Source: Rhododendron vialii (lineage: Eukaryota > Streptophyta > Magnoliopsida > Ericales > Ericaceae). Taken from it: 64,000 bases of DNA. Below, one piece after another: positions 31,172 to 60,878 of this stretch. The first letter of the stretch is position 1. The number at the start of each line of letters is the position of its first letter. A model generated the notes under the pieces. That model did not search any database. It worked only from the letters and a program-made list of their open reading frames with translations, and had not been told where the DNA came from. The stretch lies in assembly GCF_030253575.1 (NCBI RefSeq), contig NC_080564.1, forward strand, positions 3,020,501 to 3,084,500. Direction: 5' to 3'. The translations under genes were made by a program, and so were the position numbers.

Positions 31172-31173
31172 TA

Positions 31174-33380: not shown

Positions 33381-33508
33381 TGACCAGTACCCCATCGGTA
33401 CTCTTTCTATTGGTACCTGTAGTGTCTTTGGTTTTTAAGAATGGAGGTTGATCATCAACCCTAATGCTAAGGGGACAGACCACTCCATACCAATGGGGTA
33501 TCGGCGAG

Positions 33509-33782: not shown

Positions 33783-35868
33783 TGCTCGTTAATACCCATC
33801 CATATGCTATTGGTCGGTACCAATGCAGGGTGCTTGATCTTTGCGTTTCAGCATGAAAAAGTCAGTACTAATTAATATGGTCCACCTATATCTTGATCTT
33901 GCGTTCCAGCACGAAATAGTCAGTACTAATTATTATGGTCCAACTGTATCTTAATTTCAGTAAAAGGAATTAAAGAAAAAACATCCTAGCAGTTTACAAA
34001 GACTTTCTTTCTTTGAATCAAGGACCACTGTAAAAGAAACACAAAGCCCATTTGCCACCCTACTGACTCCTGCATAAGCTAAGCTAAGCTAAGCTAGGCT
34101 GAGCAAGGCTGGAGTACATAAAGATGGTAGTACTACTCTTACTAAAATAGGAAAATGGGCAGACCTCGATGAATTACTCTCCCTGCTTCCCCCTTTCTTC
34201 TCTCTCATTCCCTTGTTGTTGTTGACCTTGCTTTGAATACCTGCATCTCTTCTTTCCTTCCCAAAGTTCTATCCGGACGTCTTTACATTTTCGGTCTGTA
34301 CAATCCTTAGGTGACACGTCAACCTAATACCAGATGTTGCTCAAAGGAATGCTTGGACAATTGGACCTTAGTTTGCTTTTTTACGTTGGTTTCCGACGAT
34401 CCCAATTCCAACATTATGATACTCGATCCAGTTGTTTTAACTTTTAACCCGTAGTTATCCCCAAAACAATTAAGCTCTGCAGATTATATATTATTATGTG
34501 TACATTCAAATGTTTTAAACTATCAATAAAAGAAGCATGGTAATGTTCACATAAATTGATTTGGGTCTCTATGTATGCCTTCTCTGATGCCATTTGGTTT
34601 TCATTTGGGGATATGGTTCCGCAGTAAAACAAGTATAATGGGGCCACTATTTCAATGGCAGCCATTTTGTGCATATTTTCAAATATTAGGTCTGTTTTCA
34701 ATCCTCTCCCGTCCATATCCCCAATGATTGGGGACTAAATGAGTTTTGCTTTTGTTGTAAAATATAAGAAAATACATAATAATAAGTGAACCATTTTTTT
34801 TGGGTTATTTGAGTTTGAATTTTTAATATAAATGAAGTATTGATGATGAATATATTTTCAATTATGAAAATATTATTATTTTTTGATCCGCAAAACAGAA
34901 TTTATGAAAATATTTGAATACTACTATGTGTAGAACAGATTTTTGCAACAGATTATTACTTATAATAATTTCTAAAGATCAGAAATTGAATCTCTATTTT
35001 ACTTTTTTTCTCGTTTCCCAGGACTCATTATCTTTGCATATAAATTTTTATGAAAATATTTTCACAACTGTGGAGAATTAAATGCATACATAATTATAAA
35101 ATCAGTGTAACTTATAGTTAATACACTAAATCTAAAGGTAAAAGAAATTCAAGAGTTTGTCCGAGTGAGCATGAGATAGCAAATCAAAGGACTTGCGTAA
35201 TCCTAAGAGGATGCAAGCTTTGTTCTTTCTCAATTGTTATTCGATATGAAAAAATAAAATAAATTTTAGTTAGAGCGGAGCCAAATTGGGGCTTCTTATC
35301 CTTCATTTTGCGATATTTTTCGTTTGGGAGCCAAATTCTAATAATGCATTATTTCACAATGCATTCTCAAAACTACACTTTAGATGCGCAATTTGAGAAT
35401 CAGCTATGGAAGAGGTTTTGCATTCTTATTTTGGATTATCTTCTCAAACACATAATTATTTTTAGCATTATCCACAAAATACTCATTTATAATCTATTTT
35501 GAGGATTATCCTCCCAAACACTACTAGATATTGCAAAATCGGTTCCACACATATCTTCTAATCTCTCTACTAGATTTATAAGATCTTTTGGTAACAATCC
35601 AAAATCAATAACTTATTACAATTTAAAATGCAAAAATAACTAGGCTCTTAAACGGGCCCTAGTAAATTGGACCCTATATTAACATATGGAACATGTTTTA
35701 TGTTTACTGACGAGTTTGGATGGAACTCATTTTTTATTTTAATTAGCGACCATTCCCCGCTCGTAGTGTCGCTTTGAAAAATTAAAAGCCATAAAAAAAA
35801 AAGTTGAAGATTAGACGAAAAATTTCAGCATTATATTGAAGGGAAACCAAAACCATGAATTCGTCCGG
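33783..35868. other. Intergenic, no gene seen
   Basis: AT-rich. Contains a short AAGCT-type tandem stretch near 34078-34100 and CT-rich sequence at 34180-34260, but no supportable gene. Confidence 0.45.
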
Positions 35869-36817
35869 GATGCCACGTGGCAGTCCCTTACTCCTCCTTT
35901 TCATTTCTTTTACATGCAGTAGTATCTTTACCCCGGGCCTCGTTCAGTTGTCAGGAAAGTACAAAAAATGATGGAAAAATCAACTTTTCCATAACTTTTT
36001 GTAGTGTTTAGTTGCCAGAAAAGTAGTGGGAAACATGTTCTTAAGTTTTTCTGCAAGATTTACTTTCTTGCAAAAGTGATTCGACCAAAAGCATAGGATT
36101 TTGCAGGAAAGTTTTCTCTATTATGGGGGCTAAAATAATTGGCGGGTAAGAAAAAAAGCAAATGACGCCAATACCAAAAAAATACGAATTAAATTATTAG
36201 AAAGTCACTTTGAGATTTACGTGAGTAACAACAATTTTGACTTCTGTGGTATTTTCTGAGATAATTGTTGTGGAACAAAATTAGTAATTGATTTTTTTAT
36301 CTTGTCATTAGTCTTCAGTTTTGTTTTGTACTTACTAATCATCAGTTTATCAATGAGTTTTTGTATTGGCAACTAATCAAGCATAGTTGTTTAAAATTTA
36401 TTTATTTAGTTATCATCTACTTATTTTTTAAGCTTCATGTTAAGGCTTTGCATTAGATAAAATACATTTTTTGGTATGTGTTAGCTTTCAAAGTTACTTT
36501 AAGCCATGAAAAATAAAGAAGTTTTTCATAAGTGTCTTTTCTCAACAAATAAACCACTAAATTTGAGTTTTTCTGCAAAAAAATTTTGTCAAATGAACAA
36601 TCACAGGAAAATAGATTTCTTTTTCCTTTACTTCACTTTACTTGAATTTTCCTGAAAATAACTTTTTTGTACAACATTCCTGACAACTGAACGGAAAGGA
36701 AAAAAGGCCGGAGAGAAAAGAAATAAAAATGCAAAAGGGAATTTTCTAAAAGCGATTTTACTAGTAGTACTGTGAAAGAAATGGAAAGGAGGAGCAAGGG
36801 ACTGCCACGTGGCATCC
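35869..36817. mobile_element. Foldback element with G-box palindromes at both ends
   Basis: Roughly 950 bp. Left GGATGCCACGTGGCAGTCCC pairs with right GGGACTGCCACGTGGCATCC; the next 30 bp (CTCCTCCTTTTCATTTC) are also paired. A second inner inverted pair, CGTTCAGTTGTCAGGA (35941-35956) and TCCTGACAACTGAACG (36678-36693), lies about 60-120 bp inward. Each outer end therefore holds a perfect 12-bp palindrome TGCCACGTGGCA (35871-35882, 36803-36814). The interior is AT-rich without coding. Whether this is one element or a second element nested in a first is unclear. Confidence 0.7.
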
Positions 36818-36984
36818 TGATCGTTCCTGGTGCGTACGATTTCTATAGTACGTACTCCAGTAGCTGGTAGCTACCAGCTATTACTCCTAACGTAAGAACG
36901 GCTAGTTCGGTTCAGGCTCCGTTCCACTTTTTAAAAAAGTGACTTTTTCTAGGTCCAAAAAGGAGGCCTGTTCCAGACATCAAG

Positions 36985-38392
36985 AACCTCCTCCTCGGTT
37001 TCTGAAATGACACTGGCCTCCCTTACTTTTGCTAAGAATGTACATTTTCCCCCTTCTGTTAAGTTGAGCCCTAATGGCTTTATTCGTTTGTCATTTTAGT
37101 TTTGTTTTTGTTTTGTTTTTCAATCATTACCCTACTTCTTTTTCCAATCATTATCCTATTTTTTCAATTATTACTTTCACATTTCTCTCTATCTCTCTCC
37201 AATCATTACCCCTATCTTTAATCATTACTCTATTTCTCTCTTCACCTACTACCAAAACTGAATTAAACTAAACTCTCAACCAAAACACAACAAATGTTGT
37301 TAATTTTGATGGCTAAATGACATGGATGCCCATTCTCTTCATATATATGTCGTTAACAATGGGGAGTTATTTTGTCCTAATCCAGCATTACCATTGAAGT
37401 GCAAAAACTCTTTTTAGTTTGAACTAAATACTAATCCAACGAAACAATTAATTTCTTTTTTTTATTTGGTTTACTATTATTTTTTGAAAGAGATATCGAA
37501 ACTATTTATCTTGTAAAGAGTAAATACACAATGAAAGAGAATTTTTATTTTAAAAATGCCCCATAAAAGAGGAAAAAAAATAGTATGAGACTTCTACTTG
37601 AACTCTCATATGAGAGCCCTAAAACCAAATAAATTAAAAAGAAGAAGAAAAGGTCAAAAGTTCTGCAACCGTACCATTTGTCGTCTTGTACTTGGCTGGC
37701 TACAAGTGACTAGCGAGAGTGGCCTGGGGTATTTTGCTTAGTTGATTGTCGTGTGAGTTGGATGGGAAAATAAAACAAAGGCTCGTTACTATTACCAACA
37801 AGGGCTCGATTATATTATTGAGCCTGTACCAAAAAGTGGTTTAAGGATATAACATGCTCTATATTAATCCAGTGATTTGTAAAATCTAAAATAAGGGAAT
37901 TAAAAATACAAATTTAAGAAAAAAAATGTAAACCCAATGCACAAGGCTCCCGCTATTGCGGTGTTTGGAAAAGGGTTAGTGGAACTCCACCTTATAATAT
38001 AATTATCATCTCAAATTTAAAAAAAATATAGTCATCATCGTCAAGTTTTTTTTGGATACAATAGTCTTATTTGAAATTGAAATCTCAAATATTAGTTTAC
38101 TCAAATTTTTATGTTACAAGAAGGACCAATAAATTTTATTATGGGAGAATAAAAAATCTTGACTACATTATAGTTTGGGAAAAAAGAGGTCTACAATAAC
38201 AAGAGAGGCCAAAAGGGTATTTTGGACACTTTAATCACCGAATTTTGTGAAAATATTTAACAGCCATGTAATGGAAGGGGGCATCTTGATAAAGTCAGAA
38301 AAAACAAGGGAAGGCAGTGAAATTTCAGAAACCTGAAGGGAGGTCAGTGCTTGTGTCAAAAACCTCAGGGGAGGTCAGTGAAATTTACCCTT
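36985..38392. mobile_element. Probable degenerate TIR element
   Basis: Inverted end segments of about 75 bp: GGTTTCTGAAATGACACTGG...CCCCCTTCTGTTA on the left and TAATGGAAGGGGG...GAAATTTCAGAAACCTGA on the right. The right side has a repeated AAACCT(C/G)A(G/A)GG GAGGTCAGTG unit. No transposase frame inside. Boundaries approximate. Confidence 0.5.
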
Positions 38393-40089
38393 CAAGTTTT
38401 GAGACTGGAAGTTGATCAGAGAGTTGACTGCCCCACACCCAACATATTTAAACAAAGCTGCCCCACACCCACCATATTTAAGAGAAGCTTTAAACATCGC
38501 CAGATCGAGGACTGAAGAGAGAGAATGAAAATGTAGATAACATACGAGGGAAATATTTGCTGCTGCCTGCTGGGAGATACGTTCAGTACTTGGTTTCAGA
38601 AACGTACTTTAATACTCCCTCCGTCCCATTTTTATTGTTCATTTTCATTTTTCGTGTCGTTCTTTCAATGCTTTAATTTTTTATCATAATTTTTTAACAA
38701 TTAACCCCAAAAATTTTGATAAAAAATTAAACAAAAAGTTATGAAAATTAAAAAATACAAAAATAAGTTTAGAAGAAATTAAGCATCCTAAATTTCAGTG
38801 AACTATATCATCTATTGTTCATTTACTGAAATTTATAGTGGAGCCTATTGATAAGTACTGATACTTTCATGCTAGAATGCAAATATACAAGGACATACAT
38901 TAATTAGTAGGGGTGATTTCGGTTTGGTTTGGTTTGGTTTGGTTCGGTAAGGTTTGGAAATCGGTCCAGTCAGGGATTCCAGTCCGTCCGAAATATAAAG
39001 TTTCAATTTAATTTAAAGTATATAAACCAAGCTTCTACTAAGGGCTTCCTTAACTTGAGTAGCATTTCTCTCTTTTACTTTATATTTCACTTGTTTCTCT
39101 CTTTTATTACCTTTAGTCTTATTTCCTCCATGTTTTGAGGGTCTTTTTCCCAACAAAAAAAAATTCAAATATTCGAGGCAATTGATTGCTAAATTATAAC
39201 AATAATATACGTACTCACATTAGTTTCTCATTTTAGAAGGATTTTTGAAACAAATTCTTGAATTTTTGGTTCTAATCTAAAACTCTTAATAAATTTTGTG
39301 TCTGTGTCCCTTTGAAAAAAAATTGCCCTTGCATAATTGTTTTGTGCCATTAGAGAAATAAATTTTGTAAATGCACTTAGATTATGGGACGAAGGGATTA
39401 ACCTTTTGAATGCCCTGCAAAATAATTCTGAACCCTCCACTGACTCCGAACACTCAGTAGTGTTGGTGGCGGGAGTATTGGCAAATATAACACGGAGAGA
39501 CAAAAGTCCACTTTGATTCATGTGATTTAGACTACATACGGATCCTTCTTTTATACTTAAAAGTGTGCATATAATTTTTTGTGGTTTTAAAAATGTGCGG
39601 ATAGACTCTCTGCTATCATGTATTTTTTCCATATTAATGGATACAACACTAAAAGAACGATATGCACTCATCCTCTCCCTTGATTCTTCTTCTTCCGTAA
39701 ATAGTTTAACAAATACTACATTCATGTCAAAATTTGATAAAAAACCTCAAGGTAGAATTGAATTTATTAAGTATGAAATTAAAATTTTAAATTTGAATTT
39801 ACAAAGAATTTGATCATTAGGTAATTGATGCCTGATCGAGATGATTTTTTTATTTTTTTACAGAAATGCTCAATTCTTTATTTAATACATTACGAATGAC
39901 TTAGATTAGATTCTAGAGATGTGTGAAATACACATCTGTTAATATGGATAAAAAATATGACGGTAAGGAATCTATCCACTCCTTTTCAAAATCATGGTAG
40001 ATTATGTGTAGAATTTTGAATTATAGAGGGTGTATCTGCACATACCCAAATCACAGGGGGTAAAAGTGGACTTTTCCTCACAAAAATTA
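38393..40089. other. Intergenic, unknown ORF and small repeats
   Basis: A 33-bp unit starting GCTGCCCCACACCCA is duplicated in tandem at about 38428-38488. A single CTCCCTCCGTCCC terminus at about 38614 is a truncated Stowaway MITE. GGTTT repeats occur at about 38922-38945. A 165-codon frame on the minus strand (39228-39725) has no family I recognise and AT-rich composition; I would not call it a gene without transcript support. Confidence 0.45.
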
Positions 40090-40311
40090 CTCTCTCCGTC
40101 TCTACTTGTTTGTCCATTTTGGGAGTCCGTACCACTTTCAATTGATTATATTTTGCAATCTATAATGTTTTAGGTTATTTTAAAAATATCGTTTAAAAGA
40201 GTTCAGAGAGATCTATCAAATAAAATTCATATTGCATATAATCGGTATTTATAATTAGTTTTTTAACCGTTTAAGATAGAATGATGGACAATAGAATGAG
40301 CACGGAGGGAG
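40090..40311. mobile_element. Stowaway-type MITE (Tc1/mariner)
   Basis: 222 bp, ends CTCTCTCCGTCTC and GAGCACGGAGGGAG inverted, flanked by TA. Inner TTTGTCCATTTTG and ATGATGGACAATAG are partly paired. Lies about 215 bp upstream of the start codon at 40529. Confidence 0.75.
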
Positions 40312-40528
40312 TACTAGTCTCACTTCATTGAATCAGTACCCACTTCAAATTACTAACACTCTTTCACTCTTTTAGTTAACCAAGCGCGAGGAGGGGGAAC
40401 TTCGTCTACGTCACCGAAGTTGATCACCACCGGCAACCTACGCCCTTCCCGCCGCCTACCACAAAAGCTCATCAAAAAACAGTTCACTTGAGTATCCTCT
40501 CTCTCTCGGAGCACACCTCACGTACGGA

Positions 40529-41272
40529 ATGGAAGGTGCTAACTCCACCGAACCTCACGGAGAGAAAAAAGTCGATACCTTCACTGACAAACTTAGGAAG
40601 GCATACGAAAAAGCTGTAAGAATACAGTCGGGAGTACATGCCGATGCCAAGCAGCAGGAACCGGCTGAGCCAGAAGTCGCTAAGCCTGCAGACGTAGGAG
40701 CCGCGGTGGATGATAGCTTAAAGGCTCAGCGGCGACGACGGCAAAGGGAAAGTGACAGAGCCGACAAGAAAGAGAAAAGAAGGAAGGACAAAGCAATGGC
40801 TGTCCAAGTAAGCCAAGGCATGCTTCTGGAAGCCGCCTACCGAATAGGCGAAAAAGAAGCTGAAGACATGGTAACCTTGATGCATGCCTCTTCTCGGTTC
40901 GATTTGAGTAATCCTGGTTACTCAAATCTACGGGGACGGGCTTCAAGGAGTGGTTTTACCCATGACGAGCTGAATATTGTTGGGGAATTTGGATCACGTC
41001 TGACTCCTAAACAAGAGAACTGGAACAATTCCATTGAGGAGAACATACAAGATTCCGTCACCCATGTACATTCCAGGAACCCAGTCCACATGTAAGTAAA
41101 CATGGTATTTTATCTTGTGTTAAATGGCTAAATTTTCTTGCAAAAAAAAAAAAAAAAATCTTCATTAATTTAATTTTTTTTGTTCATACAGATGCAGAAG
41201 TTAACCACTTGAAAGAGAGAATGTGGGAGTCCCTGAATCTTAAAAAGACGAAGCTACAATTTGCCGGACAAG

Positions 41273-41306
<34 letters not shown>

Positions 41307-41329
41307 GAAGCTACAATTTGCCGGACAAG

Positions 41330-41367
<38 letters not shown>

Positions 41368-41523
41368 TCCTTTTTAATTTCTGTGTCATCTGAATCCTCC
41401 AACGCCGTCTACACACCTCTTAATGATCTTCACAAAAGCTTCCATCCTGCAGCTAGCATAGAAATGATGGAAGGAGTTAAAAGGCAAACCTCAAAATTAC
41501 GAATAAAAGAAGTAGAAATATGA
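40529..41523 (+). pseudogene. Unrecognised gene, 5' exon plus frameshifted 3' exon (left arm)
   Basis: Exon 1 runs from ATG 40529 to about 41091 (donor GTAAGT) and exon 2 from about 41192 to TGA 41521-41523. The first ~90 residues are charged, with a basic Arg/Lys-rich segment (QRRRRQRE...KKEKRRKDK). The conserved part follows (GFTHDELNIVGEFGSRLTP, WNNSIEENIQDSV). I do not recognise the family. Relative to the right-arm copy, 29 bp are missing after codon THV, so this copy runs out of frame to a stop at 41093. Exon 2 has a duplicated block of about 56 bp with two CT microsatellites. The palindrome begins inside exon 1 at about 40931, so everything 5' of that is single-copy. Exon 2 up to LQFAGQ ends at a possible donor in phase 0, matching the phase of the kinase-like exon at 43477, so the two could be one gene (inference). 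Confidence 0.6.
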
Positions 41524-41606
41524 TATAACCGCCTTGAAACAGAGAGAATTAACTTCTCGTGTGTTGTGACCACAAAGAGGACTGAATTTTTGTGGTCTTG
41601 ATCAAG

Positions 41607-41842
41607 AGAAATTTTTTGTAGCAAATTGGGTACCACGTGGTACCTAACGCACACATTCAAGCCGTCCAAAAATGTACCTGACGGTCCGGATTGAAAGTTC
41701 CGAACGGATTTTCAAAAAAAGAAAAAGAAAAGGAAAAGTGTTTTCAATCCGGATCGTCGGTTGTATTTTTAGACAGCCCGTATATGTGCGTCGGGTACCA
41801 TGTCAACAGTACCCTATTTGCACCCAAAAAAATTTCCTTCAT
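41607..41842. mobile_element. MITE in palindrome arm (mirror at about 49992-50227)
   Basis: Ends AGAAATTTTTTGTAGCAAAT and ATTTGCACCCAAAAAAATTT are inverted, with inner GGGTACCACGTGGTACC and GGGTACCATG words. The interior has paired CCGTCC and CCGGATTGAAA motifs. Present in both arms, so it predates the inverted duplication. Confidence 0.65.
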
Positions 41843-41962
41843 CAAAATAAAACCAATTAACTAACAGAGAAAGGGGTCCTTGGTACCACTAACATAGTAT
41901 TTACAAAAATGCTTCAGGCAATACTATATATGTACTGATCATGTGCCTAATTTTTCCAAGAG

Positions 41963-42245
41963 TAGTGTTATATGTACCGACCACCACCATCTTAAAATCG
42001 TACTGACGGCCTTGCCGGGCCCACTCTGGCCACCATACATATATATGCGAAAATATGGTGTTTTGATTGAGCACCCTACACGCATCGGATGCCGTTGATT
42101 CCCGTGAGAGCCCCCTTATTTTTTTTTATTATAAAATTTAAGACGGCTCAGATCGACCGTCTGGTGGCCGGAGTGGGACTGACAAGGCCATCGATACGAT
42201 TTCGGGATGGTGGTAGTCGGTACCAATATCTTTACTATTTTTCCA
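41963..42245. mobile_element. MITE in palindrome arm (mirror at about 49589-49871)
   Basis: Terminal inverted repeats of about 65 bp: GTACCGACCACCACCATC...CACTCTGGCCACCA pairs with TGGTGGCCGGAGTGGGAC (approximate) ... GATGGTGGTAGTCGGTACC. Present in both arms. Confidence 0.7.
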
Positions 42246-43476
42246 AGTTAGGAAGTCTAATTAAACAAGCCCTATTTCAGGCCCAAGTTCAGTACTAAAC
42301 TAAAATATGCTAACAAACAAGGCAAGAGGATGGTAAAGCTCGGGTCAGCTTGAATAAAACTATTGCGATTTGATTGAACCACAAACTATTTTGGTCAGCT
42401 TGGGGTGCTTAACTATTTGGAACTTTAGGCAATCCATGAATTTAATTGAACCACAAAAAGATGTTTCAAAATATATGCTTGCAATTTCAATGATATTAAT
42501 TTAACCCCTTAGCTTTTTTTAATTAATAAAGTGTATAAGGATAACAACCTAGATTAGACCCATGTTGATTGGCGAATTCGTATTGAAACCATGACACTTT
42601 TTAGTTTTGATTTGATGAAGTTTTGATAGTATTCCTGATTGGTCCATGCACATGAACCATTTATACACAAACATTTTTATTGTATTGGAAGATTATTGCT
42701 TCATTTGCATATATACATCTAATTGTTGTTTGGTGTTACATGCACCTAAACTTAGGAGATAGACACAAATGTCATATTATTTGAAGGTATTGTTCCAAAA
42801 TATTTTAGTTGGCATCTTGCCGATATAGGTACGTATTTCTAGCTAGGGGGTTGAGAATTAAGCACATGCATGATTGGCCGGAGTGTAGTGTAGATATCAA
42901 CTTGGCTAGCTAGTGGGAATTCACATTCTTTAGCAATGATGCTACTTACCGCTCACCAATTTAAGAAGTACTTGACTAATCTTCTTGTCGACATCAAAAG
43001 AAAAAAGGAACTTCGTTTTTAGAGTACTCTTATTTTCTTAATATGCTTCCTACTGTTTTAGGTAGGATCTCTCTTTTTACATCATTTGGGCATTCTTTAT
43101 GCATAGTTTGTTAAAGGAACTGATATGTGTTAAAATGATCAGTCTCAAATATGCACACGTGTATGAAAAATATTCTTCATTTGTTAGGTTTAAATAGGTT
43201 TCATTGGAGACCAATATCTCCAAATTAAGTGGTTGTTTCACACAAGTGATCTCATCTAGCAAACTAAGCTGTAGGATTATTGTTGCTTTGAGCTATTTTC
43301 AAGTAGGTTTCTCTTGGGAAATTTGTGTGTTAAAAGACCACGAAACACACCACTTTAGTTGCTCTGATCCGGCTAACCCACATTGTAATATCAATTAATT
43401 AAATTACAAATAACTCACACATGGAGCAGTGTCCATAATTCGATTCTTATTTTTTAATTGTTTCGCATTCTTTTAG

Positions 43477-45704
43477 GGTTGGGGTGGAGGCAGCTTGAGT
43501 GAATGGATTCAAGAACACAGAAACCTGATTGTTCAACCCCTCAATTGTGAAACCTTTATGGAATACCGGCTAACCGATCTTGCCCGAAATGTACTAAGGT
43601 TAGTACTACTCTTGAGATTATTGCATTTAATTGTTTCCCACAGTTTTCACACTTCTTCGACGAACAAACTTATCCCATTGTAAAACAGAATTAAGTTACA
43701 TACATTGTAGAGCCGTTCTAGCCCTTACATGGGCTGCTTTCACTACCAGCCTAGCTACCTTAGCAACCTTTATACATAATTAAAGGAGGAACACAAAACA
43801 CAAAAGTCCATAAGAGCTTCTCGTAGACTAACATCAGCTCCTAAAGGATTACAAAGACTCTGAATAGATACAATACAATCAGTTTGAATACACCGATCAC
43901 AAGCACGTTGAAGAGCCAATAATTCTGTTTGCAACTGGAACTTTGGCCACAAACCCAACCTTACCCCATTTATCAAAACCAAACTGATTTACTAAATAGG
44001 CAAATTTAACCGAAAAAACTCCATTTGTATTAAACTCCCTAATTATTTCATCCTCCACGTTGCGAACAGGAATATGCAAGCTCTTAATCCTCTGAGCTAC
44101 CTCACTAGGAAATGGCATAGAAACGAGAGGATCCCTCCATTGTCTCGAATGAAAATCAAACAAATCTGCCACTCTAAAATTAATGATGTAACTCTCCATA
44201 CTTCTTCCCTTGTAAGGGTTAGCCACTTTAGTTATCCGCTCATCTCTAAATAAATTAGTAGTTAACCCATTACCCATTTTGAACCTTTCAACAACAACTT
44301 CCGACCCTATAAAATACTCCGCCAACCCCATGACGAAATTGAGACAACTTCTGTATCTAAAACCCTTATTCGATTACAATATTTTTCCAACAAAACTGCA
44401 GCTAGCAAACCGTCAGTGTCTTTAAGAATCCTCCAGGCCATCTTAGCAAGTAACGCCTAAGTGTCTTTAAGAATCCTCCAGGCCATCTTAGCAAGTAACG
44501 CCTGATTCAGGCAAGCAAGATCACGTAAACCTAACCCTCCCTTACTCTTTGGCAAGCAACAAACCCTCCAACTTCGCCAAGCTAAGCCTTTCTCCTTATC
44601 ACCATATCACAAAAAACGAGCCACCATACTCTTAACTTTATATAAAAAATACAAAGGAGCCCTAAACACTGATAACAAATAATTGGGGATAAGGCAACAT
44701 AACATGCCTTCACACTTTGATAGGCTCTACTATTTGTTTGTATTTTGCAGGCAAATCATGAAAGAGGTTCGATACTTTCATGAAAATAAGTTGAAACCTT
44801 ACGGCCTCGATGAAGAAAACATCTTCGTATCGACTACTCATGAGGTCCACATTGTGGAACCTAATTCTCAAAAGGGTCACGATAGTACTTCTTGTGCAAA
44901 AGATTGTGCAGCGTTGAGGAAAGTGATCATTTCAATGATTGGTGGCAACCAAACTCCAAAAGATGTTGCACATCTTAAAAATTTGTTGAACCAAACCAAT
45001 CCTTTGTAAGAAATCTTCAACTTTTGCTTCCTTTGTGTATGTTATAAGTATTACCTAAAATTAAAAGTGCATCTATATAAACCAATTTAATTCTTTGATC
45101 CATGCCGCTTGTCAAATTTGTAGGAAAAATCATGACACCATTTTTAACCATCCGTGTTTGTGGAGCCAACAGGAGATGATGAGGAACATTTTTATTTTTC
45201 GAATGGTACCTCGAACTAAGTCAAAGGAATTAGTGGAGCATTTTTTTGATAATGCAAGTCGTATACCCAAATACGAAACATCAGATTGGACAAGTAGGAT
45301 ACCCATAGGATCAACCTATGAGCGCAGCTATAAAGAATGGCAGAATGATTTGGAAGGAGAACTCAAAAAGGATTTTCGGCATGAAAAAGGAAAAAAAAAC
45401 TACGTCCAGTTGATTTCTACATTTTAACCTACATGAGGAATTGCGTGCAGCATGCATATCGAGAAGTGGTAAGCCATTGCAATTGTGTTTGTTTTTTATT
45501 TTGATTGTTTCGTTGTGATCTCTCACATTTTCATTTTTGTAGGGTATCCGGTACCGGTACCGGAAGACACCGCTAGAGATTGAGAACGAACTCTTCGTGA
45601 TGTTCCCAACAATCATGTGTTGTTTTGTAGAGCACGCGATCGGTGCGACCGGCATTGAAAAAGGTAGTATGAGTCATGGCATGCAATTTGAGTTACCTTT
45701 GTAG
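43477..45704 (+). pseudogene. KEN-domain (IRE1/RNase L-like) pseudokinase gene, left arm
   Basis: Exons 43477-43598, 44751-45005, 45124-45468 and 45543-45704 (TAG). Exons 1-2 give a kinase C-lobe-like segment (SLSEWIQEH, VLRQIMKEVRYFHENKL, DEENIFVS, KDCAALRKVI). The HRDLKPQN region is replaced by KLKPYGLDEEN, so the catalytic Asp is absent. Exons 3-4 match the KEN ribonuclease fold: HPCLWSQQEMMRNIFIF, then YMRNCVQHAY, which keeps Arg-Asn and a His five residues after the Arg, as in the IRE1 active site, then ENELFVMFP. Exon 3 needs a 1-nt shift at an A-run (about 45391) to join its two halves. Known KEN proteins (IRE1, RNase L) cleave RNA in stress or antiviral responses. No lumenal sensor, transmembrane segment or kinase N-lobe was found. 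Intron 1 carries an antisense LINE fragment. Confidence 0.7.
43760..44630 (-). pseudogene. LINE ORF2 fragment inside the KEN-gene intron, left arm
   Basis: On the minus strand the typical L1 3' region is seen: KSKGGLGLRDLACLNQALL then KMAWRIL (end of RT), SSWGWRSIL, then FRDERIT...HSRQWRDPLV...NAEDEII-like (zf-RVT region), then LQTELLALQRACD (RNase H). Several frame breaks. A 45-bp unit (GTGTCTTTAAGAATCC...) is tandemly duplicated at 44416-44503. Confidence 0.75.
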
Positions 45705-45860
45705 TTTTAGCATGGAAATTACATACTAAAATTTATTTTTCATTAATACTAAAATTTATTTTTCATTAATTGACAGGAAACTGGGAGATTTAAAACAAAT
45801 TTGATCGAGGGTATCTACTGGTGGTATTGTCTTTATAGTTTGTAGATGGGCAACTTCGCT

Positions 45861-45967
45861 CTCAACTTAACTCAACTTCGCTCAATTTGATCTAATCAGA
45901 TAATTTCCTCTCTAGTCCACTAATAATTTCAATGACAAAACCTCCTAACATAGTAAGTGTTAAGTTG
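45861..45967. other. Spacer (loop) at the centre of the palindrome
   Basis: About 107 bp between strict arms, or about 87 bp if a 2-bp offset is allowed (CAACTTAAC pairs further). It contains imperfect internal repeats of CAACTTCGCTC and CAACTTAACTC. No gene. Confidence 0.85.
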
Positions 45968-46123
45968 AGCGAAGTTGCCCATCTACAAACTATAAAGACA
46001 ATACCACCAGTAGATACCCTCGATCAAATTTATTTTAAATCTCCCAATTTCCTGTCAATTAATGAAAAATAAATTTTAGTATTAATGAAAAATAAATTTT
46101 AGTATGTAATTTCCATGCTAAAA

Positions 46124-48357
46124 CTACAAAGGTAACTCAAATTGCATGCCATGACTCATACTACCTTTTTCAATGCCGGTCGCACCGATCGCGTGCTCTA
46201 CAAAACAGCACATGATTGTTGGGAACATCACGAAGAGTTCATTCTCAATCTCTAGCGGTGTCTTCCGGTACCGGTACCGGATACCCTACAAAAATGAAAA
46301 TGTGAGAGATCACAACGAAACAATCAAAATAAAAAACAAACACAATTGCAATGGCTTACCACTTCTCGATATGCATGCTGCACGCAATTCCTCATGTAGG
46401 TTAAAATGTACTCTAGAAACCAACTGGACGTGGGTTTTTTTTCCCTTTTTCATGCCGAAAATCCTTTTTGAGTTCTCCTTCCAAATCATTCTGCCATTCT
46501 TTATAGCTGCGCTCATAGGTTGATCCTATGGGTATCCTACTTGTCCAATCTGATATTTCGTATTTGGGTATACGACTTGCATTATCAAAAAAATGCTCCA
46601 CTAATTCCTTTGACTTAGTTCGAGGTACCATTCGAAAAATAAAAATGTTCCTCATCATCTCCTGTTGGCTCCACAAACATGGATGGTTAAAAATGGTGTC
46701 ATGATTTTTCCTACAAATTTGACAAGCGGCGTGGATCAAAGAATTAAATTGGTTTATATAGATGCACTTTTAATTTTAGGTAATACTTATAACATACACA
46801 AAGGAAGCAAAAGTTGAAGATTTCTTACAAAGGATTGGTTTGGTTCAACAAATTTTTAAGATGTGCAACATCTTTTGGAGTTTGGTTGCCACCAATCATT
46901 GAAATGATCACTTTCCTCAACGCTGCACAATCTTTTGCACAAGAAGTACTATCGTGACCCTTTTGAGAATTAGGTTCCACAATGTGGACCTCATGAGTAG
47001 TCGATACGAAGATGTTTTCTTCATCGAGGCCGTAAGGTTTCAACTTATTTTCATGAAAGTATCGAACCTCTTTCATGATTTGCCAGCAAAATACAAACAA
47101 ATAGTGGAGCCTATCAAAGTGTGAAGGCATGTTATGTTGCCTTATCCCCAATTATTTGTTATCAGTGTTTAGGGCTCCTTTGTATTTTTTATATAAAGTT
47201 AAGAGTATGGTGGCTCGTTTTTTGTGATATGGTGATAAGGAGAAAGGCTTAGCTTGGCGAAGTTGGAGGGTTTGTTGCTTGCCAAAGAGTAAGGGAGGGT
47301 TAGGTTTACGTGATCTTGCTTGCCTGAATCAGGCGTTACTTGCTAAGATGGCCTGGAGGATTCTTAAAGACACTTAGGCGTTACTTGCTAAGATGGCCTG
47401 GAGGATTCTTAAAGACACTGACGGTTTGCTAGCTGCAGTTTTGTTGGAAAAATATTGTAATCGAATAAGGGTTTTAGATACAGAAGTTGTCTCAATTTCG
47501 TCATGGGGTTGGCGGAGTATTTTATAGGGTCGGAAGTTGTTGTTGAAAGGTTCAAAATGGGTAATGGGTTAACTACTAATTTATTTAGAGATGAGCGGAT
47601 AACTAAAGTGGCTAACCCTTACAAGGGAAGAAGTATGGAGAGTTACATCATTAATTTTAGAGTGGCAGATTTGTTTGATTTTCATTCGAGACAATGGAGG
47701 GATCCTCTCGTTTCTATGCCATTTCCTAGTGAGGTAGCTCAGAGGATTAAGAGCTTGCATATTCCTGTTCGCAACGTGGAGGATGAAATAATTAGGGAGT
47801 TTAATACAAATGGAGTTTTTTCGGTTAAATTTGCCTATTTAGTAAATCAGTTTGGTTTTGATAAATGGGGTAAGGTTGGGTTTGTGGCCAAAGTTCCAGT
47901 TGCAAACAGAATTATTGGCTCTTCAACGTGCTTGTGATCGGTGTATTCAAACTGATTGTATTGTATCTATTCAGAGTCTTTGTAATCCTTTAGGAGCTGA
48001 TGTTAGTCTACGAGAAGCTCTTATGGACTTTTGTGTTTTGTGTTCCTCCTTTAATTATGTATAAAGGTTGCTAAGGTAGCTAGGCTGGTAGTGAAAGCAG
48101 CCCATGTAAGGGCTAGAACGGCTCTACAATGTATGTAACTTAATTCTGTTTTACAATGGGATAAGTTTGTTCGTCGAAGAAGTGTGAAAACTGTGGGAAA
48201 CAATTAAATGCAATAATCTCAAGAGTAGTACTAACCTTAGTACATTTCGGGCAAGATCGGTTAGCCGGTATTCCATAAAGGTTTCACAATTGAGGGGTTG
48301 AACAATCAGGTTTCTGTGTTCTTGAATCCATTCACTCAAGCTGCCTCCACCCCAACC
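46124..48357 (-). pseudogene. KEN-domain pseudokinase gene, right arm
   Basis: Mirror copy with exons at about 48357-48236, 47083-46829, 46710-46360 and 46285-46124. Proteins are almost the same as in the left arm. Specific damage: the acceptor of the second exon reads TTGCTGG instead of TTGCAGG, so normal splicing into the kinase-like exon should fail. The exon 3 A-run region differs by several bases and is also out of frame between the two KEN halves. The active-site-like RN...H and the ENELFVMFP tail are retained. Confidence 0.7.
47204..48074 (+). pseudogene. LINE ORF2 fragment, right arm
   Basis: Mirror of 43760-44630; the 144-codon zf-RVT frame (47503-47937) and the RNase H frame (47852-48064) are residue-for-residue the same as on the left, and the 45-bp tandem duplication is also present. 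The insertion and its decay therefore predate formation of the palindrome. Confidence 0.75.
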
Positions 48358-50310
48358 CTAAAAGAATGCGAAACAATTAAAAAATAAGAATCGAATTATG
48401 GACACTGCTCCATGTGTGAGTTATTTGTAATTTAATTAATTGATATTACAATGTGGGTTAGCCGGATCAGAGCAACTAAAGTGGTGTGTTTCGTGGTCTT
48501 TTAACACACAAATTTCCCAAGAGAAACCTACTTGAAAATAGCTCAAAGCAACAATAATCCTACAGCTTAGTTTGCTAGATGAGATCACTTGTGTGAAACA
48601 ACCACTTAATTTGGAGATATTGGTCTCCAATGAAACCTATTTAAACCTAACAAATGAAGAATATTTTTCATACACGTGTGCATATTTGAGACTGATCATT
48701 TTAACACATATCAGTTCCTTTAACAAACTATGCATAAAGAATGCCCAAATGATGTAAAAAGAGAGATCCTACCTAAAACAGTAGGAAGCATATTAAGAAA
48801 ATAAGAGTACTCTAAAAACGAAGTTCCTTTTTTCTTTTGATGTCGACAAGAAGATTAGTCAAGTACTTCTTAAATTGGTGAGCGGTAAGTAGCATCATTG
48901 CTAAAGAATGTGAATTCCCACTAGCTAGCCAAGTTGATATCTACACTACACTCCGGCCAATCATGCATGTGCTTAATTCTCAACCCCCTAGCTAGAAATA
49001 CGTACCTATATCGGCAAGATGCCAACTAAAATATTTTGGAACAATACCTTCAAATAATATGACATTTGTGTCTATCTCCTAAGTTTAGGTGCATGTAACA
49101 CCAAACAACAATTAGATGTATATATGCAAATGAAGCAATAATCTTCCAATACAATAAAAATGTTTGTGTATAAATGGTTCATGTGCATGGACCAATCAGG
49201 AATACTATCAAAACTTCATCAAATCAAAACTAAAAAGTGTCATGGTTTCAATACGAATTCGCCAATCAACATGGGTCTAATCTAGGTTGTTATCCTTATA
49301 CACTTTATTAATTAAAAAAAGCTAAGGGGTTAAATTAATATCATTGAAATTGCAAGCATATATTTTGAAACATCTTTTTGTGGTTCAATTAAATTCATGG
49401 ATTGCCTAAAGTTCCAAATAGTTAAGCACCCCAAGCTGACCAAAATAGTTTGTGGTTCAATCAAATCGCAATAGTTTTATTCAAGCTGACCCGAGCTTTA
49501 CCATCCTCTTGCCTTGTTTGTTAGCATATTTTAGTTTAGTACTGAACTTGGGCCTGAAATAGGGCTTGTTTAATTAGACTTCCTAACTTGGAAAAATAGT
49601 AAAGATATTGGTACCGACTACCACCATCCCGAAATCATATCGATGGCCTTGTCAGTCCCACTCCGGCCACCAGACGGTCGATCTGAGCCGTCTTAAATTT
49701 TATAATAAAAAAAAATAAGGGGGCTCTCACGGGAATCAACGGCATCCGATGCGTGTAGGGTGCTCAATCAAAACACCATATTTTCGCATATATATGTATG
49801 GTGGCCAGAGTGGGCCCGGCAAGGCCGTCAGTGCGATTTTAAGATGGTGGTGGTCGGTACATATAACACTACTCTTGGAAAAATTAGGCACATGATCAGT
49901 ACATATATAGTATTGCCTGAAGCATTTTTGTAAATACTATGTTAGTGGTACCAAGGACCCCTTTCTCTGTTAGTTAATTGGTTTTATTTTGATGAAGGAA
50001 ATTTTTTTGGGTGCAAATAGGGTACCGTTGACATGGTACCCGACGCACATATACGGGCTGTCTAAAAATACAACCGACGATCCGGATTGAAAACACTTTT
50101 CCTTTTCTTTTTCTTTTTTTGAAAATCCGTTCGGAACTTTCAATCCGGACCGTCAGGTACATTTTTGGACGGCTTGAATGTGTGCGTTAGGTACCACGTG
50201 GTACCCAATTTGCTACAAAAAATTTCTCTTGATCAAGACCACAAAAATTCAGTCCTCTTTGTGGTCACAACACACGAGAAGTTAATTCTCTCTGTTTCAA
50301 GGCGGTTATA

Positions 50311-50462
50311 TCATATTTCTACTTCTTGTATTCGTAATTTTGAGGTTTGCCTTTTAACTCCTTCCATCATTTCTATGCTAGCTGCAGGATGGAAGCTTTT
50401 GTGAAGTTCATTAAGAGGTGTGTAGACGACGTTGGAGGATTCAGATGACACAGAAATTAAAA

Positions 50463-50501
<39 letters not shown>

Positions 50502-50871
50502 GTCCGGCAAATTGTAGCTTCGTCTTTTTAAGATTCAGGGACTCCCACATTCTCTCTGTCAAGTGGTTAACTTCTGCATATGTATGAACAAAAAAAATTA
50601 AATTAAGGAAGATTTTTTTTTTTTTTTTTTTGCAAGAAAATTTAGTCATTTAACACAAGATAAAATACCATGTTTACTTACATGTGGACTGGGTTCCTGG
50701 AATGTCTGCACTAGACATAGTCATCCACTCCTTCACATGGGTGACGGAATCTTGTATGTTCTCCTCAATGGAATTGTTCCAGTTCTCTTGTTTAGGAGTC
50801 AGACGTGATCCAAATTCCCCAACAATATTCAGCTCGTCATGGGTAAAACCACTCCTTGAAGCCTGTCCCCG
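50311..50871 (-). pseudogene. 3' part of the unrecognised gene, right arm
   Basis: Minus-strand exon from the arm border (50871) to a donor near 50680 and a second exon from about 50579 to TGA 50313-50311. Here the frame is intact through THVKEWMTMSSADIPGTQST and continues in phase into YAEVNHLTERMWESLNL, ending TSKLRIQEVEI. The first ~134 codons seen in the left copy are absent because the palindrome ends inside exon 1. So this copy has a good frame but no 5' end. Confidence 0.6.
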
Positions 50872-51220
50872 TGTATACTGCATTTTACACCCAGGTTGAC
50901 ACCATCCGCTAAAGAAAAACGTGTTGATTGCCCATGGAGCACGAAAACGTGGTAATTAATAAGCTACAGATGAAGTGACATAGAGTAATAAAATCTCGAA
51001 GACCTGTGACTTTTCCCGATTTTCTACAGAACTAGAAAACTCTTCTTGTTACTATATCTATAGGTAACAATTTTGTATCTACAAGACTACAAGGTCAAGG
51101 TACCCTCTCGAGATGTCTAAGTAATTTTGCTTTCTAGCTTGTTAACTTTTTGTAGGAAGAGTGATCGAGGAGAGCAATTTCTCTAGTAATACTAACTAGA
51201 GACCGGGTTACACGCGATGC
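50872..51220. other. Unique junction between right arm and F-box/LRR remnant
   Basis: About 350 bp with no recognisable gene; no F-box coding sequence was found here on either strand. Confidence 0.5.
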
Positions 51221-53547
51221 ATGAGCAAGTTGAATTTTGACCAATATATTTCACGTGTCACAAATCATTTTGGCTCTAAATCATTGACTTTTCTATTGTT
51301 AAGAAACTGCAATATGACAAACCTTCTTATTAGTACAAAGTGTTGCTCCCTGCGGGAGTTAATTTTGTTGGGTGTTTATGTAACCGAGGACATTCTTCAA
51401 ATGATCATATTTTGCTGTTCTTCTTCCCTTATCAGACTAGACCTGTCTTGTTGCAAATTGTTGAAGAATCTTCATATCTCCGATGTTCAAAAACTCAAGA
51501 AGGTTGATGTGCATGATTACGCTGGTGAACTTGAAAGAATTGAGATTAAAGCACCCAATCTTGGTTCTTTTGCCTATCACGGATATAGAAGGACATTGAA
51601 CGTTTGTTTGGCTTCTTGTGTGAATCTACAAGAGTTGTGCATAGATTGTCCCCTCATTCCGGAACAATTTACTCGAGATGTTGGTTCTAGATTTCCACTC
51701 CTTAAATAATTGGAGCTACATGGTTATGGGTTGAAATCGTTTGAGATAACAAGTCTTCAACTTGAAAGATTATCGTTAAGAAGTTTGCATCCTATTATTA
51801 TTATTAAGGCTCCAAATCTTTCTTCATTTGCATTTGATGGTGATCTTACGAGTGTATCACAATTATCCATGGAAGTTTCAAGGGAATGTGAAATTGGGCT
51901 CACAAGCCCCCAGGAACTAGACACTCTATGGTTCCTGAAATTGAAAGAATGGGTTACAAAGTTAGGTGTCAACAACGTGGTTTTTAAAGTAGCTGATTTT
52001 TCTAGTAAGGTATGGTTACAAAATAAAGTTTCGTGTAGTATCTTTTTTTTTTTTTTTTTTCAGTTTTTGTTTCTTGTCTTTTGTTGATAGTAGTAGTTTG
52101 AAATTATTTGTTGGCAGAATTTTTGCCTCTGGATAATGAAGATAACTTTCAGTTTCGAAGTTCTGAGAAATATTTCGATTCCTCCACCATGTCATGTGAA
52201 GCATTTGAAGCTATCGGGACGATCATATCGGGTTGGAGTTCTCAATTTAGATGCTCTTGTGGATGGCTTACCTTGGAGTTGTCGTCCTGAAACACTATCG
52301 ATTGCAGAGGCACCGGATATTGGGACAAAGTTTGCAAAGGTATATTCTCTCTCTGTCCCTTTTATAGTGTTCCCCTGGTAATCGTGTATTTTCTTGGGCG
52401 TAAAAAAAAAGGTGTATTTTCACCAAATTAAAGTACTCTTTGAACCAAGATTGTGGATCCCGTATCGTACGCCTGCATTGTTTCAACCTAAAACCGGTAC
52501 TTGAAGCTCCCTTTTCCGTTTCATTTGAATTACCTGAGGTTGCCGTTGGTACTAGAGGATTCCGGTCATTTTTCGGTTACCAGAGCTTACCATTTCGTTT
52601 TTCAAAACGGAGAATAAAAGATTGGGTTGAGTAAAAGGACTACTGTGTTTTCTGCTATCCTACCCTGTCAAAAGGGCAACTATTGTGGTTGGAAAGGATG
52701 CAAGTCTGTCTATTTTTATTTTTATTTTTAAATTTGTTTTCACATCTTAGCTGTCCTTTATTACATAGTAACATATTTACTTTACTAATATAGCTTTATT
52801 ATTATTTATCGGAAATATAGAGTACCATCTCAAGCTGTCCTTTTTTCACTCCATTTCATCGTGCCTTGAGCTATATATGCATATGACATTTACGAAGCAC
52901 CTTAATATATAAGTGCACATTTAGATAGTTGGACTTAATTAATACGTGTACACATGTATATAACAGTTTGCATATTCATTATATTATAACGAAAAATCCG
53001 AAACGGTATCCGAATCATTTTGGTACCGGTACGTACTGTACTGTACCATAACAAAAACGGTACCACAACTCGTACGGTATTCAGAACCTTGCTTTGAGCA
53101 CTTCAATTTGGTGCAATAAAAATAATATAGAGAGATACAGTATATATTTTAAGGGTTTGAAAATGCACATATTCCTAATGTGGACATTTAAAAAGGGACA
53201 GATGGAGTACCTGGATAGAAAGGGGATCAAAAGATAATTTTGTAGCATTCTTTACTGTTATATTTATTTGTCAAATTCCCCTTAGAAAAGCATGTGCCGT
53301 GTTTGGTACTCCAAAACACTTATTTGTTTGATCAATGCAGGCTCTGTGTGAGAAGCTTGTGAGCCAAAAAAGTAGGCAACGCTGTTGTGGATCTTCTCCT
53401 GTCGCATGCTGGTTGCACTGCCTAAAAGATGTTAAGATCGCGTTGCTTGCTGGGACAGATAAAAAAGCTCTCGACTGCCATTCTTTGTTACAGGCATTGC
53501 CAACTCTCATAAGACACCATCATATTAGTTTTAATTTTCGTTGGTGA
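51221..53547 (+). pseudogene. F-box/LRR (FBD-type) gene lacking its F-box, one in-frame stop
   Basis: Exons 51221-52009, 52118-52339 and 53341-53547 (TGA) join in phase, 406 codons. Exon 1 holds LRRs typical of plant F-box/LRR proteins (LTFLLLRNCNM, LRELILLGVYVT, LIRLDLSCCKLLKNLHI, IKAPNLGSFAYHG, LQELCIDCPLIP). Exons 2-3 hold the family's C-terminal region (EVLRNISIPPPCHVKHLKL, VDGLPWSCRPETLSI, CWLHCLKDVKI). Codon 163 is TAA (51707-51709) between FPLLK and LELHG, where homologues continue without a break. No F-box precedes the LRRs; the sequence stops resembling the family about 350 bp before the palindrome border, so the 5' half may have been lost in that rearrangement (inference). Intact relatives recruit substrates to SCF ubiquitin ligases. 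Confidence 0.75.
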
Positions 53548-53560
53548 TCCGTTTATTACA

Positions 53561-53562
<2 letters not shown>

Positions 53563-53626
<64 letters not shown>
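53563..53626. repeat. CT dinucleotide microsatellite
   Basis: Thirty-two uninterrupted CT units just after the F-box/LRR stop codon. Confidence 0.98.
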
Positions 53627-53630
<4 letters not shown>

Positions 53631-54748
53631 AAGGATTCAAGATTCAAAAAAAAGTTTTATGATTTATCACAAGTACTATAACACTTCTAGTAGATTATAA
53701 CATAGTTCATCACTTGTTAGCTTGGCTTACATGTTCATGTAACATGTCTAGTACGTGCTTTTTATGCTGTATTTGGAGATTGTGTTGTGGAATTAATTCA
53801 TACGAGTAGATAAAGCTTTTAACTGACAGCGATGAGGATTATTTTGAATGAATGATCCAGAGTGAAATTTATATCTTATTTGATGGTGTCCTTGCGTAAA
53901 TTCCATCTTGAGCCTGCTGTGCTTGATGTAGATTTGAATTGAGTGAATGAAAGGGTAGTGTTGGATAGAGTTTCATCATCTCTCCTGAAATCAATTGGGA
54001 TATAATGTAAGGGTTGTGAGGTATTTTGATTATTTTGTATGTGGAGGGGTATTTTGGTCCTTTGATAATGTAAGGATGGTAGGGGCATTTTGGTTATTTT
54101 GTACAAACGGGATATTGTGATCATTTTGAGAACGTATGAGTTTTAGAGGTATTTTGTCTTGTTTTTTTAAAACAAGGGAAAACACCTTTTCCATATTTCC
54201 ATAATTTCTTAAAACATCAAAAAGTATTATTGTATTCCGGTCGTATTTGTTGGAATTCAATTAACACTCGAGTCTTGACTAGAAAAACAGCAGAACTCTT
54301 AAACGAACGGGGTCTTGATCTCCGAAGATACTACACCTTCCACTCTAAAATATTTGTACAGTGTGCGATTCGAAACAAGAATTTAAAAACAATGCTTTTT
54401 TTTAAAGAAAAAATTTCAACTTTTCTCATAAAAAAAACTCGTTGATCTACTCATAAATTATTAAAAAATTAATTTAGTTTTAAGCAATCGTATTGCGAAC
54501 CAAACAAAACATGAATGAAAAGAGACGGTAATAAAGAAGAAAGTGAGGTCATCAATTGTCCACGCCAAGAGTCTTCCAAGAGAGAGGCCAATCTTTTGCT
54601 CTAAGCTCTCCACACAAACACAAACGTGCCTCCCTTATCTTTCCTCAACACCAGAACCCTCTGCAACTCCAGCAACATTATTTGATTTCTGTAAAGACCA
54701 CACATTCCTTACATTCCTCTCTCTCTCTCTCTCCAAAAACACTCTGCC
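53627..54748. other. Intergenic and promoter of PrxQ copy 1
   Basis: Direct repeats of TTTTG(G/A)T(T/C)ATTTTGTA-type words occupy about 54020-54150. From about 54271 (CTTGACTAG) the sequence is homologous to 57063 onward, marking the start of the tandem PrxQ duplication unit. The leader before the ATG is CT-rich. Confidence 0.55.
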
Positions 54749-56748
54749 ATGGCTTCTCTTTCTCTCTCTCTCCAAAAACACCCACTCCCTTCTCTCCTTC
54801 CAAGACAATCCCCCAAACCCCTTTCATCATCTTCTCACAACCTCTTCATTCTCCCCAAATCATCACATTCCCATTTCTACGGTACCGTCAAGCTCTCTTA
54901 TCCTCCCTCCCTCTCACTCCCATCTTCCAATTCTTCTTCAAGGAAGCAGACTCTGATTTTTGCCAAGGTAAACAAAGGTGGGGTGCCCCCGAGTTTCACA
55001 TTGAAAGATCAAGAAGGAAGGAATGTGACCCTCTCCAAATTCAAAGGGAAGCCTGTGGTTGTTTACTTCTACCCTGCTGATGAAACCCCTGGTTGCACCA
55101 AACAGGTACGTACTCTTTCCTTTTTTCTTTTCTTCTCTCTTTCCCTTCAATTACTGTTACATAAATTACGAATCGGTTTTGCAGTTGTTGTTCAGGATCC
55201 CTTACATTTATGATGTCCTTATCCCCTGATCAGTTGTAACGAACCACAATTTCGTGTAATACACGTACAGACTAAGGATTTTCCAGTGTTCTAAAAATCG
55301 GATTAATTGCTAGCGGGGTCTATCCGACTAGATCCGACTAATTGCTATGTGCCAATTACTGGGCCTCGAAGCTCGAAGGTGACCGCCCACCCGACTAGTG
55401 CCTACCGACTCTTAGAACATTGGGATTTTCTTATTAAACATGCATAGGCTTATGTTGGAAGCTTGTGATTCATTAGGTGCGCTTTGTTGGGGAATAATCC
55501 TAAAATCCCTTGGAATGTGGCAAAATCTGCTAAAGAACAACTAGTGATAATGTCAACAAGGCCACCTTTTTCTTCTAGTTATAGTAGCTTTCTCATCTTA
55601 AGCTAGAAAGGCGATCCTTGGATTGTGAAGGGGGGAAAAAAGGTTCTCAATCAAATCAAAATACGTGCTTAGAACCTTCCGAACAAATGCATCATTTTCC
55701 AGGCTGGCTATTAGGTATTGCCAATTCAACCACTTGGGGCTTTGGAAACTTGGATTTCTCCAACGTGTCTCCATACGCCGCTATATCTCTGCTGTAACAC
55801 AATTCCAATTTCATTGCCTTATTTTGATTGTCACATGCTACTGCCTTCGAATTTTAACTGGCACGAGGGATGTTAGCTAGACTGGATTTCACTCAGCTTC
55901 ATCTGAAGATGAAGATGCTAACCAGCTTTTTGATACTATACCCCAGGCTTGTGCCTTCAGGGACTCCTATGAAAAGTTTAAGAAAGCAGGAGCTGAGGTA
56001 GTTGGAATCAGTGGCGACGACCCATCATCCCACAAGGTAATAGTGAAAAAAATCTGCACCGCCTGAACGGCATTCTTCAGTGCTGCAACCAAAATATGAA
56101 AAATAATTGTCATTAACAGTTCTACATTTTCCTCAACCTTACCGACTCAGAAAAACCACTTTACCACTGATTGCTTAACGTTCAGGGGGAAAAAACTATA
56201 TATTTTTCCGTGCTTGTTTAATTATAGTCAGTCCAGTTTTTGTTCATCTGAATTCATCTTTATTGGTAATTTTATGTACGGAAGCTCTATTAGCTTGTCA
56301 GCCATTTTTATATCAACCTCAGCATTTTGAACCTGGGGAGACTTCTTTGAATTATGAAGCAGTTTCTGATATCAATTTTTATGTACTGATCTTTTCTTTT
56401 TAGTTATAATTTCATAGTGGTAGAAAAGTCATGATGTGAATTGAAATCCTACTCCGTTCCTCTGTTACGAATTAGCTTGTGATTGCGTCCCAAATCTTGT
56501 GGATGACCAAAAGTCGAGAATGAATGCAGGCATTTGCAAAGAAATACAGACTTCCATACACATTGCTGAGTGATGAGGGAAATAAGATCAGGAAAGAGTG
56601 GGGAGTGCCTGCAGATCTGTTTGGAACACTGCCCGGAAGACAGACTTATGTTCTAGACAAGAATGGAGTGGTTCAACTTATCTACAATAACCAATTCCAA
56701 CCGGAAAAGCACATCGACGAGACCTTGAAGATTCTTCAAAGTATTTAA
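54749..56748 (+). CDS. PRXQ: Chloroplast peroxiredoxin Q, copy 1 (3 exons)
   Basis: Exons 54749-55105, 55947-56036 and 56530-56748 give 221 residues (Arabidopsis PrxQ is about 216). The Ser/Leu/Pro-rich N-terminus (about 1-68) looks like a plastid transit peptide, [18 protein letters not shown] being near the family start. The AhpC-TSA fold follows: [67 protein letters not shown] and [18 protein letters not shown]. Peroxidatic Cys116 and resolving Cys121 (C-x4-C) form the intramolecular disulfide typical of PrxQ and straddle the exon 1/2 junction. The enzyme reduces H2O2 and alkyl peroxides in the thylakoid lumen/stroma using thioredoxin. Unlike copy 2 there is no intron after IFAK. Intron 1 holds a 139-bp hAT-like MITE. 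Confidence 0.95.
55284..55422. mobile_element. hAT-type MITE in intron 1 of PrxQ copy 1
   Basis: 139 bp flanked by a perfect 8-bp duplication GGATTTTC (55276-55283 and 55423-55430). The ends CAGTGTTCTAA and TTAGAACATTG are inverted, starting with the CA...TG of hAT elements. The orthologous intron position in PrxQ copy 2 (about 58929) lacks the element, giving an empty-site comparison. Confidence 0.9.
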
Positions 56749-60740: not shown

Positions 60741-60878
60741 AGAGTGTGAAGGCGGCAAGGCCTAATTGCCTAAAGCGATTTTTTTCCCCCCTTCTTTGAG
60801 AAACCTTAGGCTAAGATCAGCGAGATCAGCGATCTCCGGAGCTCTCTGATCAACTTCTCGCCCTGCAGTGACGGGAAC

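Follow-up and report, generated by a model that had tools for sequence, protein, structure and literature searches.

In the 64-kb stretch of DNA that was analysed (hereafter the window; 37.2% G+C, 0 N), two arms of about 4.9 kb face each other in inverted orientation around a short spacer (Table 1). Comparison of the window with its own reverse strand by BLASTN recovers the inverted repeat as three blocks, of 4574 bp (99.3% identity), 238 bp (96.6%) and 138 bp (99.3%), which chain into the two arms with a top score of 8257 bits, a level at which chance similarity is not an issue. Global alignment places the arm borders at the same positions and delimits a loop of 87 bp that has no second copy in the window at an E-value of 1e-10. 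An earlier note on this DNA had described a palindrome of ~10 kb with a ~90-bp loop and ~4.9-kb arms, and both methods bear this out, the outer coordinates having been correct to within one base. The constant sum of 91834 that it gave for paired positions likewise holds from ~41366/50468 to 45391/46443 (e.g., 41808 + 50026 and 45103 + 46731), and shifts beyond these points because of indels.

Table 1. Features of the palindrome; positions are those of the window.
Feature	Coordinates	Strand	Evidence and remarks
Exon of a gene with a UBA-carrying relative (P0002)	40529..41091	+	Crosses the left border; GTAAGT next; 29 bp missing after 41067
Left arm	40930..45871	+	BLASTN and global alignment; continuous with the older left flank (P0001 and P0002 span 40929/40930)
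Probable splice acceptor CAG in left arm; CAT in right arm (50580)	41191..41191	+	Putative exon, phase match with P0002; direction of change presumed
57-bp tandem duplication with CT tract	41247..41360	+	Single in right arm; self-BLASTN and alignment
Difference-free block; probable gene-conversion tract	42198..44727 (partner 47107-49636)	.	Alignment
LINE-like reverse-transcriptase C-terminal remnants, antisense	43900..44606	-	ORFs; the longest has its right-arm copy at 47461-47937
Putative exon of the gene earlier called KEN	44751..45005	+	Acceptor TTTTGCAG in left arm, TTTTGCTG in right arm (47085); limits putative
Putative last exon of the gene earlier called KEN	45124..45427	+	C-terminal frame differs in right arm; limits putative
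11-bp perfect inverted repeat, left loop edge	45861..45871	+	2-bp indel directly outside; presumed priming role
Loop/spacer, single copy, 87 bp	45872..45958	.	Global alignment
Partner of the 11-bp inverted repeat, right loop edge	45959..45969	-	
Right arm, inverted copy	45959..50872	-	BLASTN and global alignment
29 bp retained in right arm, missing in left arm	50706..50734	-	Codons match P0001 and P0002
Right outer border, new junction	50872..50873	.	Exon truncated and joined to unrelated sequence

The surroundings of the palindrome contain several other features. Just right of the new junction lies a leucine-rich-repeat ORF of the AtMIF1 type (51200-52087; PF23622, E 9.8e-14), and the 327 bp between the two gave 0 Pfam matches in the one frame scanned. 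Farther to the right, a tandem direct duplication (54463-56890 and 58023-60469, with pieces 85-95% alike) carries an AhpC-TSA (peroxiredoxin-type) domain in its first copy, and it is followed at 60810-64000 by LINE-type sequence, with a 588-codon frame containing DUF4283 and then an endonuclease domain in frame from 62579, which probably extends beyond the end of the window. To the left, an H/ACA snoRNA, snoR100, is found at 34524-34631 (Rfam RF01219, 70.9 bits), and two adjoining ORFs split by a stop at 26596-27534, the first of which has a Kelch motif (E 9e-5), are perhaps a single broken gene. Four self-complementary stretches (74-81%; 2456-2777, 3627-3898, 30029-30171 and 33583-33707) resemble foldback/MITE elements or young microRNA-type hairpins. 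Finally, a weak inverted match (74%) pairs 19797-20037 with 57284-57536, distant from both borders of the palindrome.

The two outer borders of the palindrome differ in age, as judged from the gene that crosses one of them. An ORF spans the left border (40929/40930), and a protein search with the border exon yielded 368 candidates, of which two relatives reached E<=0.1: P0001 (E 1.4e-78; source 'lgn', a 900-bp contig) and P0002 (E 3.4e-36), a protein with a UBA domain from Rhododendron molle, a member of the Ericales. To judge from this one gene, the DNA of the window probably comes from a related plant. Both relatives continue uninterrupted through the left border, and the 29-bp segment that distinguishes the arms, an indel already reported in the earlier note and confirmed here, codes for KEW-type residues present in both of them. 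Thus, the arrangement of left flank plus left arm is the older one, the junction at the right border is new and the right arm is a truncated copy, an ordering that relies on these two relatives, one of them from a 900-bp contig. Furthermore, since the right arm and the relatives share the residues of the 29-bp segment, it was the left arm that lost it later. Short matches of 9 to 11 bases nearby might recall templated filler, but the relatives identify the segment as old sequence that the left arm no longer has, and we rejected the filler interpretation. At the sole substitution within the shared exon (40938/50864), both relatives have the glutamine of the right arm, and the left arm has arginine. 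When the exon frame is read outward into the right flank, it meets a stop within 30 codons and bears no resemblance to the relatives there. The claim that homology ends inside an exon at both borders holds insofar as both ends fall within one exon, both being the same arm end, but only the left flank can be shown to continue that exon. The palindrome accordingly combines one ancestral border with one new junction, the arrangement expected of a fold-back duplication, and its right outer border is a breakpoint under every reading, be it one in the chromosome or one in the assembly.

Within the arms, the border exon apparently ends ACAT/GTAAGT, and a phase-matched next exon would follow ATACAG, the last G of which lies at 41191. 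Closer to the loop are two putative exons of the gene earlier called KEN, a name based on a short motif. Pfam, PDB, protein search and pairwise comparison lend this label no support: queries with the two exons of the probably degenerate gene gave no match to a kinase or KEN domain in Pfam, PDB or the protein collection, Pfam returned for these exons only two DUFs, both below the cut-off, and BLASTP against a stretch of human IRE1 gave an E-value of 0.16 over 12 residues. An IRE1-like kinase-KEN identity, for which none of the four comparisons recovered the domain, was set aside as unsupported. Provided that the exon calls hold, the acceptors at 41191 and ahead of 44751 would both have been lost in the right arm; the changes were noticed, and the exons called, after inspection, and no statistical test is attached to them.

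The antisense remnants, which we take to be LINE-like from their motifs, likewise found no database match for the label that the earlier note had given them. The longest antisense ORF produced 16 candidates in the protein collection, with 0 relatives at E<=0.001, and 0 Pfam matches. A Pfam scan of the six frames of the left arm detected 0 domains at E<=0.01, with limited power, given that it also missed the LINE-like pieces. A perfect 45-bp tandem duplication lies within the remnant, identically in both arms (44415-44503 and 47331-47419), and it either predates the palindrome or was copied from arm to arm.

Alignment of the arms reveals 24 clear substitutions, 18 of them transitions, a count that omits a T/C difference next to the 1-bp indel at 45399-45401, a site of ambiguous alignment, but includes the pair 41366/41367 in a CT tract, possibly a single slippage event. 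Six of the 18 transitions fall at CG sites, and CG sites account for 12.5% of the arm cytosines. Indels in the global alignment measure 63, 29, 5, 2, 2 and 1 bp. The 63-bp gap corresponds to what had been called a duplication of ~56 bp and proves to be a tandem unit of 57 bp, accompanied by a CT tract, in the left arm; the supposed 6-bp indel is present near 45399-45417 but consists of 1 bp plus 5 bp. The two 2-bp indels, at 41141 and, adjoining the loop, at 45859, are additional to those described before.

The substitutions are clustered at the two ends of the arms. The outer 1268 bp contain 13 and the inner 1144 bp 11, amounting to an arm difference of ~1% on each side, and the intervening ~2530 bp contain 0. 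A substitution-free stretch as long as the longest observed (2531 bp) arose in 0 of 200000 simulations and has an exact P of 8.2e-7, both computed with 24 substitutions. Given a real palindrome, the plain explanation of this difference-free stretch inside otherwise diverged arms is probably arm-to-arm gene conversion. Notwithstanding, a tract common to two haplotypes would give the same pattern.

Taking these observations together, we propose that the palindrome is a young inverted duplication generated by fold-back in a plant nuclear genome, a reading that the borders and the loop make reasonably probable. Under this scheme, the chromosome would have broken next to the present loop, on its right side, and the broken 3' end would have folded back via a short inverted repeat, for which the 11-bp repeat at the loop edge, as it stands part of the arm homology, is the candidate. 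The folded 3' end could then have been extended for ~4.9 kb along its own arm, stopping inside the exon of the UBA-type gene, and the extended end would have been joined to the right flank. The left arm lost its 29 bp later, and the arms would have been partly homogenised by gene conversion between them. An inverted copy with a non-duplicated spacer, here the 87-bp loop, is what such an event is expected to leave behind. Given the ~1% arm difference outside the identical block, the arms would have split roughly 0.7 million years ago at a substitution rate of 7e-9 per site per year, only if they are paralogues. With the same proviso, the split would date to roughly 2 million years ago at the slower 2.5e-9 per site per year, the rate given for Populus tremula (PMC7023750).

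That the palindrome truly resides in the chromosome appears quite probable when all readings that place it there are summed. The opposing possibility, that two haplotypes, or two dispersed 4.9-kb copies, were joined head to head by an assembly error, is unlikely but has to be taken seriously. The difference of ~1% outside the identical patch could reflect heterozygosity combined with a shared tract, since two haplotypes of one plant may likewise be identical in patches, and artificial long-read palindromes have been documented after whole-genome amplification (PMC6218980, PMC13265396). On the other hand, the adjoining flanks (30001-40929 and 50873-62000) have 0 BLASTN matches to each other at E 1e-3, and the arm naturally continues into the left flank. 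Hence, a haplotype join, which the earlier note had listed as an alternative and which these two observations weaken, presupposes that a second junction, the one at 50872/50873, is false or rearranged as well. Moreover, the arms are connected by the single-copy loop in a window free of N. A plain foldback read would have duplicated the left flank too, and the loss of 29 bp in the left arm and the presumed acceptor losses in the right arm would give each arm its own changes, unlike a foldback read of a single molecule. The earlier conclusion that this is not a simple foldback-read artefact therefore stands, and we reject that explanation on the strength of the old coding sequence found only in the right arm and of the differing flanks.

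Two further mechanisms would place the palindrome in the chromosome by another route. Replication template switching, in the form of origin-dependent inverted-repeat amplification or microhomology-mediated break-induced replication, is rather improbable. Its product would look similar, with an inverted copy, a short spacer and a short inverted repeat at the turn; models of template switching are described in PMC10766183 and PMC4689423. The origin-dependent model as presented in PMC4689423 concerns inverted triplications, whereas the BLASTN self-comparison of the window shows the arms in two copies and no third; on present evidence, template switching and fold-back are not separable. Insertion as a unit of a mobile element with very long terminal inverted repeats, of the foldback or Mutator-like kind, might be suggested by the long inverted arms about a short centre and the LINE-like pieces inside. 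It is nevertheless extremely improbable: 40929/40930 and 50872/50873 show no target-site duplication (TCAAATCT before, GTATACTG after), the left end falls within an exon whose relatives run on across it, and the Pfam scan of the left arm, limited in power, was empty. Such a transposon was accordingly set aside, chiefly because of the missing target-site duplication and the continuing exon.

In plants, new hairpin-siRNA and microRNA genes have been proposed to arise from inverted duplications. The central 991 nt are predicted to fold with -808 kcal/mol, whereas 20 shuffled versions average -213, so that a transcript of this central part would have the long near-perfect intramolecular pairing of a hairpin-siRNA locus, and the earlier prediction of a multi-kb hairpin RNA from read-through is structurally right. 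The putative gene copies nearest the loop converge on it from both sides, and it is possible that a transcript crossing the loop from either side would form a near-perfect 4.9-kb hairpin. One might envisage a newborn hairpin-RNA locus at ~1% arm divergence, in which the converging gene copies would be transcribed across the loop into 4.9-kb dsRNA, giving rise to small RNAs that silence related copies of these genes and of the LINE; gene conversion would keep the central part of the stem identical, and the splice sites of the newer arm would decay; we regard this scenario as distinctly doubtful. The CpG observed/expected ratio of the arm (0.667) is not below that of the flanks (0.600); hence, there is no extra CpG loss and no support for old or long silencing, and long-term methylation decay of the arms was rejected. 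Poly(A)-like hexamers, present throughout the arms on either strand, decide nothing, and a scan for bacterial promoters and terminators around the loop, which is not meaningful in a plant, found none. With an older and a newer junction that can be told apart, arms ~99% alike and a conversion-like block, the locus allows the birth mechanism, conversion and silencing each to be tested separately.

Several known systems offer parallels to individual aspects of the palindrome. Fold-back duplications in humans and yeast share with it the inverted copy, the non-duplicated spacer, the short inverted homology and the non-homologous outer junction (PMC3907307, PMC7467729). In the human cases, the reported signature is a spacer edged by short inverted homology, and reported spacers range from 766 to 70,466 bp (PMC3907307), so that the human set, with spacers of at least 766 bp, counts against the likeness of a palindrome with an 87-bp spacer. 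The human cases are, moreover, mostly large and located beside terminal deletions, whereas the present palindrome is interstitial, measures 10 kb and belongs to a plant. In yeast, hairpins with loops of at least 15 nt form a class, and with intact MRE11 and SAE2 the median loop is 36 nt (PMC7467729). With respect to the difference-free block, the palindromes of the Salix purpurea W chromosome have arms more than 99% alike on average and a 3-kb stretch lacking arm differences (PMC7023750), although the gene-converting palindromes of the willow W and the mammalian Y are much larger than the one described here.

As for the predicted RNA, Arabidopsis IR71 is likewise a kilobase-scale inverted repeat, from which ~3-kb dsRNA is processed by DCL2 and DCL3 and secondarily by DCL4 (PMC12825306), and its small RNAs are active in cis and, as seen with reporters, also in trans (PMC2902426). 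The present arms, by comparison, measure 4.9 kb and are ~99% alike. The Arabidopsis PAI1-PAI4 tail-to-tail repeat (PMC3203196) differs from the present palindrome in that the genes of the latter look degenerate. Like the present palindrome, PAI1-PAI4 is an inverted gene duplication with the genes directed at the centre, and a transcript running through one PAI copy into the other yields fold-back dsRNA (PMC3203196).
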